Shown here: positions 35,190-49,798 of the stretch, in pieces
Layout of the letters: each line of letters begins with the position of its first letter
How positions within the stretch are numbered: position 1 is the stretch's first letter
Translations under genes and position numbers: made by a program
The notes under the pieces: model-generated
What the model saw: only the letters and a program-made list of their open reading frames with translations
Told to the model about the DNA's origin: nothing
Databases searched by the model: none
Assembly (NCBI GenBank): GCA_025934495.1
Contig: JAICXY010000003.1
Span: forward strand, 1 to 64,000
Source of the DNA: Candidatus Nitrosocosmicus sp.
Lineage (GTDB): Archaea > Thermoproteota > Nitrososphaeria > Nitrososphaerales > Nitrososphaeraceae
Length of the DNA: 64,000 nucleotides
Direction: 5' to 3'

Positions 35190-35770
35190 AATACGGTCTA
35201 TGGTCACATTGAACACCAAAGGACATCTACCAAGATAATTATTATATGTGTATATCTACTCTTTATACTTATTTCCTAGGTTTGTTTCAGAAATACATCT
35301 AGATAGATCTTTACAGCCATTTGCAGAAAAAAAGTCATTGTAGCAATATAAGAAAGAGTACAAAAGTTAGATTCAAAACAGGTCTATCCATGTGAGTAGG
35401 AAAGATGTATCTGATTGATGGAACATATACAAAAATAGGTGGTACTGAAACATGGATATGAGTGGCAATAGACCCTATGCATAGTAGTTTTGGAATGGAG
35501 ATTCATCTCCAGGTACAGAAAGGAATATGCTAGTAGTAGTAGTAGTAAAATCTTTTTTTAAATCGTTAATAGAGAAGGGCATGGAATAGACACATATATG
35601 TATGCTATATAGAGTATATTTTGTATAGTGTTACTTGGTCCTAAAGTCGGTAGTTCTCTATGTCTCGAGCATTAGTTACATTCATCATATGAGATAGTTG
35701 TGGAAAGAATAATGCGATATAAAAGATAGAGCCGCAGAAGGATTTGACGATTACTATCCCCATATATGAA
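35190..35770 (+). mobile_element. IS6-like transposase relic
   Basis: Plus-strand fragments IDGTYTKIGGTETWI.VAIDP and RAAEGFDDYYP align with the other IS6-like copies. Confidence 0.6.
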
Positions 35771-36381
35771 CGAAGAATATGAATTAGAATGTTCTATAGA
35801 TATGGATTATAATGATGACGATGACGATGACGAGGTAATTTGTTTAATGTGCTGTACGAGCCCACATCAAATTTAGATTGTTAATTCGATTGATCAGAGT
35901 TTATCCGTTAACAGTTGTGTAAAATGTTGATTAGATGTATTTGTAAACTCATTATAATTGTGTTGATATCTGAATTATTACAGCAGTAGTATTTTATTGA
36001 TATTGAAATAATTAAAAATAAGTGGTTAAAACAACTACAAATTCTATACAATAATCATTATCAACATGTTACACAGCTGTTAAGTAACAGGTCATTTTTT
36101 TAAAAGTAACATAAAAATATGACCCAATTTTTTTATAAACCTTTTTTAATATTAAATATGCTATCGTGTTTAAACAGGGTATAGTCATAATTTTATATTC
36201 TCAACTATGAGACAAGCCTAAGAGGCATTGGCATATGTTATACATGCACTGATATCCAAATAAAACGACCACAGTTTAACTAATTTATATATTATCATAT
36301 CTTCACAATATCCATTGTGATACATGTTCTACTAAATCGCTCTATTTGCTATGTTCCGAACAAGTTTTCGAAAATGTATGA

Positions 36382-44100: not shown

Positions 44101-45239
44101 ATGTTAATATCATAATAATACTTTTTTATAAAAAAGTAATACTTAAGGATTGTTAAACATGATGTATATTACGTAAAGACCCCACATATGAAACAATTTA
44201 CAAATGTAATTTACCAATATGAAACATTTTTGAAATCACTAACAATTTTTTTTTAGTTTTCATATTATCTTTATCATGCTATGAAATGTCCATGAAGAGA
44301 TAAAACATAATAGCATAATAGACAATATCATAATAAACATGTTCCACATTGTAGCAAATACGCCAAGATCATAATAAACAATACCAACATTCATTTGATC
44401 ACAACAAAAAACAGAAAAAATAGGCAAAAGAATACCCCTTGTATCTATGCCAAAAAAATAGTAAAAATATTTATAAACATTTTTTAGTATGTAAAAAAGT
44501 AATGCTCTTATTATCTACTTGTTTCTTTTAAAGAATATAGTCACTAAAAAAATAATAACCATTAATAAATTAGAAGGGACTAGGTCAAGTAAATATGATA
44601 CACGATTATAAAAGCTTATTTCAAATAAAAAGCAGTACTTTCTCAAGGAGCCATCCAACATATAGATATAACAAGATTTGATCCTCGTCCTTTTATTGTA
44701 AGTAATAGGTCTATGATCCTTCAAGATAGAAACCTTTCTAGAGCGTGTATTATTTATCATAAAATGATTGAAGATGAATTGGATCTACAGAATCATATAT
44801 ACTAGGCCGGGTTTTTTGAATCTCGGTTTTATTCATTACCTTGGAAGTCCATTTGTAGATGAAAAATTGTAAGAACAAATTCATATCGATAAAATTTATG
44901 ATACTTTCATTATTGAAGATCAACTCCCCATTTGTGACGAACGATATATGAGATAGTTAATTCTTTGCAACCAAGCCATATTCTTCACATGAATTTGTAA
45001 TGGAGAAGGGCAAATATCTGCTTCATAAAGAAGTGTATTTGAACAAATGGTTTATGGCGAGGCAACCATAACATTTCCATTGTTTGCAGGATTTGCACGT
45101 CGCAATAAGAAATGGATAAATAGAAAGGAAAAACAGTTAAGAGCATATCCTAAAATTATCTTTCTATAAATGATCATACAACAGGATAACTGTACCAATC
45201 AAAGATAGTTTTTTGACTTTTTCTCATATCGGGTGAACA

Positions 45240-46085
45240 GTTTCCTAAATCAGTCATGCCACGAGTTGTTTCGCTCTATAACCCATCTTTTTGCAGAATG
45301 TTTTTTTCGATTTGAGCAATGCTGTACTGTAATCTTGATCTCCACTTGATCTCCTCTTACTCTTCTTTTTCCCTTTGAAGGAATATGCAGTACATATTCT
45401 CGTTTGATTAATTCTTGCTCTTCAGATTCGGAATTGTATATCTTATCTAAACATAGATGTTGAATCTTTCTTTTTCTTTCTATCTTTTTAGTTTTATGTG
45501 ATGGGAGTGGTCTTCTGATAACTGCATTATCAACCACATCTGTTACTAGTTTGATGTCATGCGTGCTTGCTGAAGAAGAAATAACTGAAGATATAGGGAT
45601 TCCTTTTTTATCTGTTAAAATATGTCTTTTTGTTTAGCCTAGTTTGCTTCTTCTATCAGTGGTGGGATTATATCCAGTCATCGCCCCACCCTAAAGGTGA
45701 CTTTATAGATATGCTATCGATGGATTGCCATGCCCAGTTGATACCAATACAGTCATCATATATTTTCAGTAATCTGATCTATCCCTTTTTGAATACATCT
45801 GATCTATTCTATTCTATTCCTGAAAACCTACGGTGACAGGTATATAGAACCCGATCCGTATTCTTTGGGTAGCATCTTCCATTTACATCCTGTTCTTAGT
45901 ACATAGAGAATTACATCGATCACTTTTCTGTATGGGATAATTGGTCGTCTACCAACTGTCCTAAGAGGTTTCTCCTTTGGGAAAGTACTCTTAATCTCAT
46001 TCCATAATTCATCAGGAATCTTGAGTACGGTAGATTGTTTATTGTTCTCCTTTGATCTCTCCTTCTTCTGTATGAAGGTCACAGT
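45240..46085 (-). mobile_element. IS5-family transposase pseudogene
   Basis: LKIPDELWNEIKSTFPKEK...RTVGRRPIIPYRKVIDVILYVLRTGCKWKMLPKEYG, and downstream fragment KTKKIERKRKIQHLCLDKIYNSES. Confidence 0.75.
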
Positions 46086-46204
46086 TTATCAAAAGAGGAA
46101 AAGAGCTATAATCCTATCGAATTTTGGAATAGGTTCTTAGTTATAGTGATTAATTGAAGAAAATTTTTATGTTCTATTACGCTTGATCTAGAATTTATTA
46201 AAAA

Positions 46205-46288
46205 TGACGATTTTTTTGACGGTTTGACGGAAAGAATGACGATAATGACAATAAAATGACGGAGGTACAGAAATTGACCGATTGACTT
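46205..46288 (+). promoter_or_regulatory. Array of eight same-orientation TGAC boxes upstream of the HTH/coiled-coil gene
   Basis: TGAC at 46205, 46217, 46225, 46237, 46246, 46257, 46275 and 46283; TTTATAAAG at 46298-46306; ORF starts at 46336. Confidence 0.6.
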
Positions 46289-46335
46289 ATTTTTTTATTT
46301 ATAAAGATTTTTGATATATATAGTAATATAAAAAG

Positions 46336-48255
46336 TTGGTAGTTTCTAATCCTTCCATTACATCTCTAGTAATACAGGGGTATCTTAATGGTAAATCCAG
46401 AGACCAAATAGCTAAAGAATTAGGGATATCTACAGGTACAGTCTCAAAGATAATTAAAGAGTGGAAATTAAGATTAGGGATACCCATTGCTGAAGAACTA
46501 CGAGACTTTGCTATTTTGGTTAAAAAATCAGATATCCCCATAGAACAATGTGCAGAAGGCTATAGAATGAAAAATATAATGAAAAACCTTGGAATTTTCG
46601 ATGATATTGACGATGAGAATGTCGTTGACTCCATTGGCAATGGCATTGGCAATAGCGATGACAATAGGAGAATAAGATACAATGAATTTTCATTTTTTGT
46701 AAAGGAGATCTATATGAATTGTAAAAGACTCGGAATTAAACCGATTATTATATCTTCTTGGATTCATGATTTATTTTCATGGTATTCTCCATATGTTAAT
46801 TTAGGATCTTCAGTAAATGGAAAGAGGATTGATGGTGAAGAAAAAAGAAATGATAAAAAACCTGCTGTGTCATCTCCTCCTCTGAAGACACCATACCTTT
46901 CTCAAGAAGCCAAACCAATGCCCGTTTCAAACTCCGATGAATTCATCATTAATCAAAGTTCCAATGCATTTACAAACAATATTACAGCTGACTTGAATCC
47001 CAAACAAAATACCGGTTCTTTAAATAATATAGAGTCTCCATTTGTTTCTCAGATTTCTAACTATATCGCCAAAAAGAAAAAAGAGTGTAGAGAATTAGAA
47101 AATTATAAATGGAAATTAGAGAAGGATATCAAAATAAAAGAATCAAAAAAAAATCAAAAAGAATTTGAACTTGAGCTATTAAAACAAGATAAAAAATATG
47201 TTATGACATTTATTGATTGGTTTTATGATTTAAAAAGAGAGCTATGGGAAAGATTCACTATTAAAATAGAGGATTTTGGAACGTTTACTTCGGTTATAAA
47301 CGATTTTAAAAAAAATGGCTTTGATATAGCGAAAATAATGGAAAAATACATAAGTGCAATCTCGCTAGATGATAAAATAAAAAAAGAAAGTGATGAACTT
47401 CAGATTCTCCATAGCCAAAAAATAGAGTCAAACAAAACTTTGGCACTGTGGCAAGACCAAGTAAATCAACATCAGCATACTATGGACATCTATTACCAGC
47501 TTGAAGATATGAATTTGGGACTCAAAGAGTTAAAACAACTAGTATACCTCATTTTAGAAGTATCAAAAGCTAACAATATTTCACCAGATAGAGCAGTTTT
47601 AAAATTCCTTGATGATATTGAAAAAGATTATGATAATAAACTTGGATTTGAGACCAAATTAAAAGAAAAACAAGATGAGCTTGCCTTTTTGAACAATAAA
47701 GTGATCAATTGCCGTACCATATTACAATCACAATCATCTATAGGAGCGGCCTTCTCCAATCTATTGCAAAAAGGAATAACTGAATCAGATATTATAACTA
47801 TCAATCAACTGGTTGAAGTTTGTACAAAAAGTAATAATATTGATTTTAGTAATTCTAAAATTGGTATTCAAAATGAAGACTTTATTACCAAATATAAGAA
47901 TACTAATGATAGCAAAGTTAAATCAGAATACTGGAAGATGTGGATAAATGACCTAAAAAGATATGGTGATATCAAGGTAACAGTACAAGAGTATCAAGTC
48001 AATGCAGAAAAGTTGCAAAAACAAGTTTATAATCTTGATAAACAAAAACAAGAGAGTACCAACTATATACAAACCGCAATCTCTTTTATAAATTCATTAA
48101 ATAATGAAATTTCTTATTACAAAGGATTCATAGATCAAATTAAAGATCAGAAAAATAAAATTAATTTAGCTTCCAGGGTTTCATTGTTGCCTATTTTCAT
48201 TCTAGTAAATAAAAATTCAGAAAAAGATGAAGAAAAAGATGAAGAAAACAATTGA
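46336..48255 (+). CDS. HTH (homeodomain-like) N-terminal plus long coiled-coil protein
   Basis: 639-aa ORF: VIQGYLNGKSRDQIAKELGISTGTVSKIIKEWKLRLG followed by extended Lys/Glu/Gln-rich heptad-like regions. Confidence 0.85.
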   Translation: MVVSNPSITSLVIQGYLNGKSRDQIAKELGISTGTVSKIIKEWKLRLGIPIAEELRDFAILVKKSDIPIEQCAEGYRMKNIMKNLGIFDDIDDENVVDSIGNGIGNSDDNRRIRYNEFSFFVKEIYMNCKRLGIKPIIISSWIHDLFSWYSPYVNLGSSVNGKRIDGEEKRNDKKPAVSSPPLKTPYLSQEAKPMPVSNSDEFIINQSSNAFTNNITADLNPKQNTGSLNNIESPFVSQISNYIAKKKKECRELENYKWKLEKDIKIKESKKNQKEFELELLKQDKKYVMTFIDWFYDLKRELWERFTIKIEDFGTFTSVINDFKKNGFDIAKIMEKYISAISLDDKIKKESDELQILHSQKIESNKTLALWQDQVNQHQHTMDIYYQLEDMNLGLKELKQLVYLILEVSKANNISPDRAVLKFLDDIEKDYDNKLGFETKLKEKQDELAFLNNKVINCRTILQSQSSIGAAFSNLLQKGITESDIITINQLVEVCTKSNNIDFSNSKIGIQNEDFITKYKNTNDSKVKSEYWKMWINDLKRYGDIKVTVQEYQVNAEKLQKQVYNLDKQKQESTNYIQTAISFINSLNNEISYYKGFIDQIKDQKNKINLASRVSLLPIFILVNKNSEKDEEKDEENN

Positions 48256-48419
48256 TAATATTTGAAATAAAATTTAAACTATACTATTTATTTCAAAAAA
48301 CAAAAAGAAAAGGAAACCTCGAATTATCCAAAGAAGAAGAAGAAGAAGAAGAAAAGAGTATAACAAAATTCATTTAAAAAAGAGAATAGTGATAGAGAGC
48401 ATACTATATTTATCAATTG

Positions 48420-48560
48420 AAAAATAAAGGATAATGAGTAATGTATTTAGAAACAAAGTGATGAATTACAATAAGTATTAGATATAGTCGCAGGGCTAGT
48501 AAACTATAGGATGATGAAACAACATCGTTATAAGAAAGGAGGAACATCAATAGCGAACCG
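48420..48560 (+). repeat. IS transposase 3' end relic
   Basis: Similar to 1-180 (TGTATTTAGRAAC..., ACTATAGRATG). Confidence 0.4.
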
Positions 48561-49411
48561 AATGAAATATTTTTACTTATATAAAAGATCTATTATTTAA
48601 AATGTAAATATTTGTAATTTGTTAAAAATTACTGGAATAATATGCTCTGTCGAATATGTCAACATTTAAAAGGACAACATGGCAACAAACCACCCTTTTA
48701 TTAATGTAAGATAGTTCTCAAAGTAAAATTGTAAAATTTCAAAAGTATGAGATCATATTAGAGAACCCTGAAAGGCATAAAACAAAACTATTAGATTTAT
48801 TAAAGGAGAAAAAGAAGCAAGCAATTAAATAAAATAATTAAAAATGTAGTTATTTAAATAATGGCAATAAAGTCCCAAAATCTACACAATGATAAAAAAT
48901 GCAAAAATATTCATTATTATAACAAAAAATCACATTTTTAATTCATTTGAGATATAATTAGCTATGCGATAAAATTATTATCTTTTGTATCCGAATTTAT
49001 CAAAAGAGATTTCAAGGAATGCTATAAAAGTAATAAGATTTTGAAAATACAATACACGAAATTTATACAGACAAAAATCTTTTCTGTCAATAGATATATC
49101 TCTAGGAAGGTATTTCATCATAGACTTGAAAAAATCTACATGTCTAATCATGTTGTTTCTTCAATTACCCAAAGGATGGTGAACCAACATCTCACTTTGA
49201 GTAAAGTAATTGCTAAAGAAAATTTTCTAACTTTATTAGGTGTACATCACATAAAATAGCATCTGTAAAGGTAAATTTTAGATTATATAATGTTGATAGA
49301 TAGAAAAGCATTAAATTTGTTAATGGATTTCTAAAACAGAAGTTTGTAATGTATAAACCGTAATAATAAATAAAAAAAATTTTATTAAATAAAAAATTAG
49401 AAATTAATTAA

Positions 49412-49798
49412 TTATTTTTTTGTGTTATTTCCACCACTAAACAGGTTTTTTAATCCTTGCATCATGTTATTTGCAGTATTAGAAATGGTTTTGCCTGTTT
49501 GATTTAATGCGGCTCCTGCACCTTGAGTTGCATTTTTAGCTGCGGCTCCTGCACCTTGAGTTGCATTTTTAGCTGCACCAGATGTTTTATTCATTGCGGC
49601 TCCTGCACCTTGAGTTGCATTTTTAGCTGCACCAGATGTTTTATTCATTGCGGCTCCTGCACTTGCCTTTGTCTGATTGGCTGCATTACTGGCATTTTGT
49701 GAAAATACATTTGTTGCTACAAGGGTACTTGCTGTTAAAAGTGCAAAGGCTCCTATTGCAACTACTGCTATTGTTAATACTATTTTGCTATCCATCAC
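49412..49798 (-). CDS. Secreted repeat protein rich in N-glycosylation sequons
   Basis: Signal peptide then repeats of AAKNATQGAGAAMNKTSG. Confidence 0.8.
   Translation of the reverse strand: MMDSKIVLTIAVVAIGAFALLTASTLVATNVFSQNASNAANQTKASAGAAMNKTSGAAKNATQGAGAAMNKTSGAAKNATQGAGAAAKNATQGAGAALNQTGKTISNTANNMMQGLKNLFSGGNNTKK
49509..49662. repeat. Tandem coding repeat units of 33, 54 and 54 bp
   Basis: GCGGCTCCTGCAC starts at 49509, 49542, 49596 and 49650. Confidence 0.9.

Follow-up and report, generated by a model that had tools for sequence, protein, structure and literature searches.

TGAC box arrays before an archaeal helix-turn-helix and coiled-coil gene family as likely autogenous operators

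Eight TGAC boxes at positions 46205 to 46288 of the analysed stretch of Candidatus Nitrosocosmicus DNA (64,000 nucleotides, hereafter the window) probably form a cooperative, cis-acting operator of the gene that follows, bound by the helix-turn-helix (HTH) protein encoded there, with repression slightly preferred as the outcome. Comparable arrays precede relatives of this gene within the same genome and in other species, with box spacings that follow a narrow rule and with box types that vary together with residues of the HTH. The array lies in the promoter of its own gene and is conserved in orthologs and paralogs. The autoregulatory arrangement appears to be real and conserved, and the family apparently undescribed.

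The Array and the Gene Behind It

The sequence-only reading had described eight TGAC boxes in a single orientation with start-to-start spacings of 12, 8, 12, 9, 11, 18, and 8 bp, comprising three TGACGG, two TGACGA, and one each of TGACAA, TGACCG, and TGACTT, followed by a TATA-like element at 46298 and a TTG start at 46336. Orientation and spacings hold to the base, the composition matches exactly, and both promoter landmarks are present. The boxes start at 46205 (TGACGA), 46217 (TGACGG), 46225 (TGACGG), 46237 (TGACGA), 46246 (TGACAA), 46257 (TGACGG), 46275 (TGACCG), and 46283 (TGACTT). The features of the region are as follows:

45140-46132, minus strand: IS4/5-type transposase copy, DUF4096 match, 86% to contig C2:5536-6500
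46205-46288, plus strand: array of eight TGAC boxes, read directly and kept at paralogs
46217-46230, plus strand: close box pair TGACGGTTTGACGG, 8-bp step
46283-46288, plus strand: final box (TGACTT), which begins 15 bp ahead of the TATA-like element, just upstream of the BRE position
46298-46306, plus strand: TATA-like element TTTATAAAG, 8/8 match to TTTATAAA
46336-48255, plus strand: family gene, TTG start, 639 aa, with the start position kept in the C72 and C200 copies
46369-46467, plus strand: HTH_23 helix-turn-helix, residues 12-44 (PF13384, E 5.6e-7)
46399-46401, plus strand: residue R22, specificity-associated through box type
46444-46446, plus strand: residue S37, specificity-associated through box type
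47044-48150, plus strand: residues 237-605, largely helical and predicted (AlphaFold2) to form long coiled-coil helices

From the start of the TATA-like element to the start codon, the window gene has 38 bp and many family members have about 28-43 bp, and leaderless transcription of the window gene is plausible from this layout. The transposase copy consists of short separate frames, ends some 70 bp before the array begins, and is not part of the system. A search of 45100-49000 against Rfam returned no match. Further downstream, the minus strand at 49412-49798 encodes a small secreted-looking protein with tandem NATQGAGAAMNKTSGAAK-type repeats.

With 29.6 bits against a curated PF13384 cut-off of 24.6, the window protein belongs to HTH_23. 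Searches of the protein against Pfam, NCBIfam, PHROGs, and PADLOC gave HTH-type and weak coiled-coil matches only, with no Rep initiator domain among them, and a search of the PDB by sequence and by fold yielded generic HTHs only, none significant. The coiled-coil part of one relative, L091 (G006:C1:178946-180706), is matched by PADLOC LmuB (E 1.8e-7), which probably reflects coiled-coil similarity, and a weak match of the window protein to PDC-M09A in a defence library (7e-4) is taken in the same way. In the AlphaFold2 model (mean pLDDT 63.9, pTM 0.24), the helices are credible and their overall arrangement is not.

Across the window, TGAC occurs about once per 485 bp per strand; its density is low elsewhere, and no other part of the window matches the box density of the array. 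On the plus strand, the next densest 84-bp stretch comes from an Asp-coding tract (35745-35833); on the minus strand, no stretch of 84 bp holds more than two boxes. A first-order Markov simulation of the intergenic region reached at most five boxes per 84 bp in 20,000 draws (five in 3 draws), and simulation with the composition of the window reached at most four. Asp-coding (GATGAC)n tracts do mimic such arrays, so that an origin by chance or as a coding-repeat artefact deserves mention, but the window array is intergenic, its spacers form no simple repeat, and the spacing rule, the conservation, and the simulations all contradict such an origin; box-count and spacing simulations refute it, and its probability is close to nil.

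Asp-coding GATGAC repeats, seen in the window at 35816-35833 and at L183 and L109, can mislead motif scans of these genomes. Apparent arrays of 8 and 9 boxes close to radA copies likewise proved to be Asp-rich coding repeats.

Arrays Across the Family

The window genome comprises 3.56 Mb in 200 contigs (C numbers below denote contigs), and genome-wide counts were obtained by pattern searches. Intact relatives of the window gene in this genome are a near copy on C72 (87%) and a remote copy on C200 (42-46%); copies on C49 and C119 are broken, and C152 carries an N-terminal copy at the contig end. As the sequence-only reading had asked, clusters were sought before paralogs, and arrays are present there and at distant homologs: in the same genome they precede the C72 and C200 paralogs and the C49 and C119 pseudogenes, and they mark relic sites on C59 and C62. 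That arrays outlast broken (C49, C119) or lost (C59, C62) genes is accounted for if the array belongs to the gene and decays later.

Arrays were counted as same-strand TGAC or TGAAC boxes in one chain within 260 bp upstream of the start codon; the sample comprised 66 family loci drawn from about 30 genomes. At least three boxes were found at 45 of the 66 loci vs. 4 of 492 window stretches of 260 bp, and at least four at 41 of the 66 vs. 1 of 492, that one being the studied array. The remote homologs L171-L174 also carry arrays. Twenty new loci from other genera of the taxonomic family were fetched once the rule was fixed and served as a held-out test; with a slightly wider box pattern that allowed CGAC, at least three boxes were present at 16 of the 19 with enough upstream DNA, the best array being that of L212, with ten boxes in strict 9/12 alternation. 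The array is weak or absent at L112, L116, L175, L176, and L223. Where only two boxes are found (L091, L092, L095, L098, L109, and L166), these retain the 9-bp close pair, which is therefore probably the minimal unit.

A shorter HTH subfamily (L014, L178, L180, and L177; about 185-285 aa where complete) has boxes on the opposite strand, in near-exact 11-bp tandem arrays (e.g., GTCATTCTGTC) that lie more distant from the gene.

Spacing Rule and Distance to the TATA Element

In 38 non-redundant arrays, 94.8% of the 135 spacings equal 8, 9, 11, 12, 20, or 21 bp; random box placement puts 30% on those values, with a maximum of 46.7% in 20,000 draws. Neighboring spacings cluster at 8/9, 11/12, and 20-22 bp; values of 10 bp and of 14-17 bp do not occur. 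Steps of 8/9 and 11/12 bp alternate, and consecutive pairs mostly total 20 or 21 bp, or two helical turns. Calculated for B-DNA with 10.5 bp per turn, the 12- and 9-bp steps amount to rotations of about +51 and -51 degrees, and thus all boxes would lie near one face of the helix.

The distance from the start of the last box to the TATA element falls into two groups about one turn apart, 7-9 bp and 15-19 bp, with TATA calls of 5-6 of 8 matches being uncertain. About half of the typed members fall in the 7-9 bp group, whose last boxes overlap the position of the BRE. The window array belongs to the 15-19 bp group.

Box Type and HTH Residues

Across the family, the boxes drift between TGACGR, TGAC[CT]A, and TGAAC. 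Each locus was assigned a box type (TGACG, TGAC[CT], or TGAAC) from the DNA alone, and at least ten changes of type occur on a protein tree from which the first 46 residues had been left out. When 335 well-filled alignment columns were ranked for association with box type on one shared tree, HTH residues 22 and 37 came first and second, and residue 23 was fourth by z-score. In the AlphaFold2 model, these residues fall at the beginning of helix 2 and within the recognition helix. TGAAC boxes are found with none of 25 members that have R22 and with 12 of 25 others. A nested switch is seen at L086 and L092 (L22, H37), which have TGACCA within a largely TGACG clade. VYN at positions 36-38 accompanies TGAC[TC] boxes within the genus and TGAC[TA] boxes in the held-out loci L208, L209, and L218. 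A comparison of phylogenetically independent pairs, of which the tree holds only 2-3, fell short of significance for this co-variation. The finer rule that R22 specifies TGACG fails outside the genus, where L210, L214, and L216 combine R22 with TGACC.

Targets and Decayed Sites

The pattern TGACGRN{2,3}TGACGR has seven matches in the 3.56 Mb of the window genome, and all seven lie at family genes, pseudogenes, or relics, an exclusivity that applies to the TGACGR type in this genome. Two-box pairs of the form TGAACRN3TGAACR also occur away from family loci, and four relatives have close TGACGR pairs that lie elsewhere too, most of them GATGAC-type repeats. As far as these patterns show, each protein would thus target its own promoter; pair searches of this kind would be blind to targets with a single weak box.

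Arrays of the TGACC type with 9/12 spacing occur at five sites in the window genome, inside a repeated unit of about 260 bp:

G000:C2:4333-4410, C2:9751-9850, C49:26515-26576, C109:15982-16027, and C157:18287-18332: TGACC-type arrays (L045-L048)

Only decayed HTH remnants lie behind them. Those at C49 (SQSEKSIVIQIYLQGKSIN) and C2 (ETGISRVSIKYL) could be made out by eye, although a tblastn search at E 0.05 missed them. Either the spread of a non-autonomous unit or the old loss of five genes might have produced these arrays.

Two exact 11-bp arrays have no recognizable family gene near them, one of nine boxes (TGACGGGCATT, G000:C23:6483-6574) and one of four (TGACGGACATT, G000:C59:14744-14780).

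Distribution and Genomic Context

The HTH and coiled-coil family is multi-copy, lineage-expanded, and scattered through the phylum. Every one of the 15 genomes from the genus contains members, with 1-14 matches to an N-terminal profile and many of these broken; full-length profile matches are found in 41 of 70 genomes of the taxonomic family, and 13 of 300 genomes in a phylum-wide draw match, far relatives included. Ten copies inspected with their neighbors look solitary, with radA and other ordinary genes around them, and no tRNAs lie beside family copies. At the radA-adjoining site, the gene is intact in four species (G003, G005, G009, and G011) and decayed in G004, G012, and G013. Searches by tblastn in plasmid and phage collections found no relatives. 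No relatives of two members among genome contigs, or of the window protein among viral contigs, were confirmed in a search whose short-peptide seeding was probably too strict for a fast-evolving family. A literature search for an HTH and coiled-coil family with such arrays found no description.

Mode of Action and Alternative Explanations

The sequence-only reading had left a choice between an autoregulatory operator and a partition or replication site. The former is favored by the arrays at homologs, the occurrence of close TGACGR pairs at family loci alone in the window genome, and the co-variation of boxes with the HTH, and autoregulation of the window gene is likely on this pattern; the latter found no support. 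As a centromere-like site, the array would be coated by the protein so as to anchor or segregate DNA, and a direct-repeat array in the promoter of the binder's own gene, together with a coiled coil, fits such a role, as does the similar layout of omega/parS (PMC9499535). Against it, no ATPase or filament partner adjoins the ten inspected copies, whose neighbors are ordinary genes (radA among them), plasmid and phage collections are without matches, and genomes hold several copies with many pseudogenes, so that partition is very unlikely. No ParA, ParM, TubZ, or Rep partner was found among the ORFs around the ten copies, in Pfam searches of eight neighbors, or among the window neighbors; a ParABS, ParMRC, or TubZRC module was rejected since the adjacent ATPase or GTPase is missing, and an iteron-type replication initiator since the Rep domain is.

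Somewhat less improbable, although still unlikely, is a mobile or selfish transposon-like unit composed of array and gene, with the boxes as ends recognized by its own protein. High copy number, many decayed copies, the gene-less arrays on C59 and C62, the TGACC-array unit of about 260 bp present five times in the genome, and the fact that the copies on C46 and C72 cease to be homologous about 50 bp past the stop codon are what such a unit might leave behind. Yet the protein has no nuclease or DDE domain, neither terminal inverted repeats nor a target duplication was seen at copy-pair ends as judged by BLAST, and the presence of the radA-adjoining copy in several species, intact or decayed, looks like vertical inheritance. 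A search for an empty site at the radA locus gave no clean case, the corresponding stretches of gene-less genomes also being without the HD neighbor.

For the autogenous operator, we infer physical binding, cooperativity, and the direction of control. Copies of the HTH protein would bind TGAC boxes as directly repeated half-sites, which the alternating 9/12-bp steps (21 bp, two turns) may hold on about one helix face. Adjacent HTHs, linked via the coiled-coil region, could then bind cooperatively beside the BRE and TATA element, and the bound array would set the level of the gene's own mRNA. About half of the typed members have a last box that covers part of the BRE position, where bound protein should compete with TFB, and this tips the balance slightly from activation toward repression, perhaps through blocking of TFB at the BRE. 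An operator of the opposite sign is nonetheless a serious, if less probable, possibility, given that archaeal activators bind upstream of the BRE and TATA element (PMC5512572; PMC4158304), where the array also lies, and that the last box of the window array starts 15 bp before the TATA element. A more far-reaching and rather doubtful proposal is that each protein reads essentially only its own array, with both shifting specificity together and paralogs thereby insulated, so that the system would be semi-selfish or nucleoid-organizing and serve no other promoter.

Significance and Comparison With Known Systems

The family offers dozens of natural HTH/operator pairs with visible switches (TGACGR, TGAC[CT]A, and TGAAC), a series in which a DNA-recognition code for the HTH could be tested residue by residue. 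It also points to a large, apparently undescribed family in archaea for which few genetic tools exist. The combination of a TATA element and, ahead of it, same-strand TGA(A)C boxes at 9/12 spacing provides a simple sequence mark for finding family genes and for re-annotating them, the latter being of use where, as appears for several members, the start is TTG.

Direct repeats adjoin the gene of the presumed binding protein in the Rep/iteron systems of iteron plasmids as well, but the window protein lacks a Rep domain, and no evidence of an origin or a plasmid was found. ArdK of R388 (PDB 7bca) resembles the proposed complex in placing an HTH on directly repeated half-sites, although its Foldseek match is weak and not significant (E about 0.5). 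Omega (ParB) of pSM19035 binds WATCACW heptads that overlap promoters (PMC9499535), and the likeness lies in short, non-palindromic direct repeats overlapping the promoter of the binder's own gene. Omega differs in being a ribbon-helix-helix protein of a plasmid with a ParA partner, whereas the window family combines an HTH with a coiled coil, is chromosomal, and shows no ATPase. In Methanococcus, EarA uses four 6-bp sites upstream of the BRE at the fla promoter (PMC5512572), and the layout is alike in that an archaeal regulator has several short sites directly upstream of the BRE and TATA element. The window family is not classed as a member of either the omega or the EarA system. While EarA regulates another operon, the sites of the window family precede its own genes, and they do so as same-orientation boxes with 9/12 spacing in a multi-copy family.
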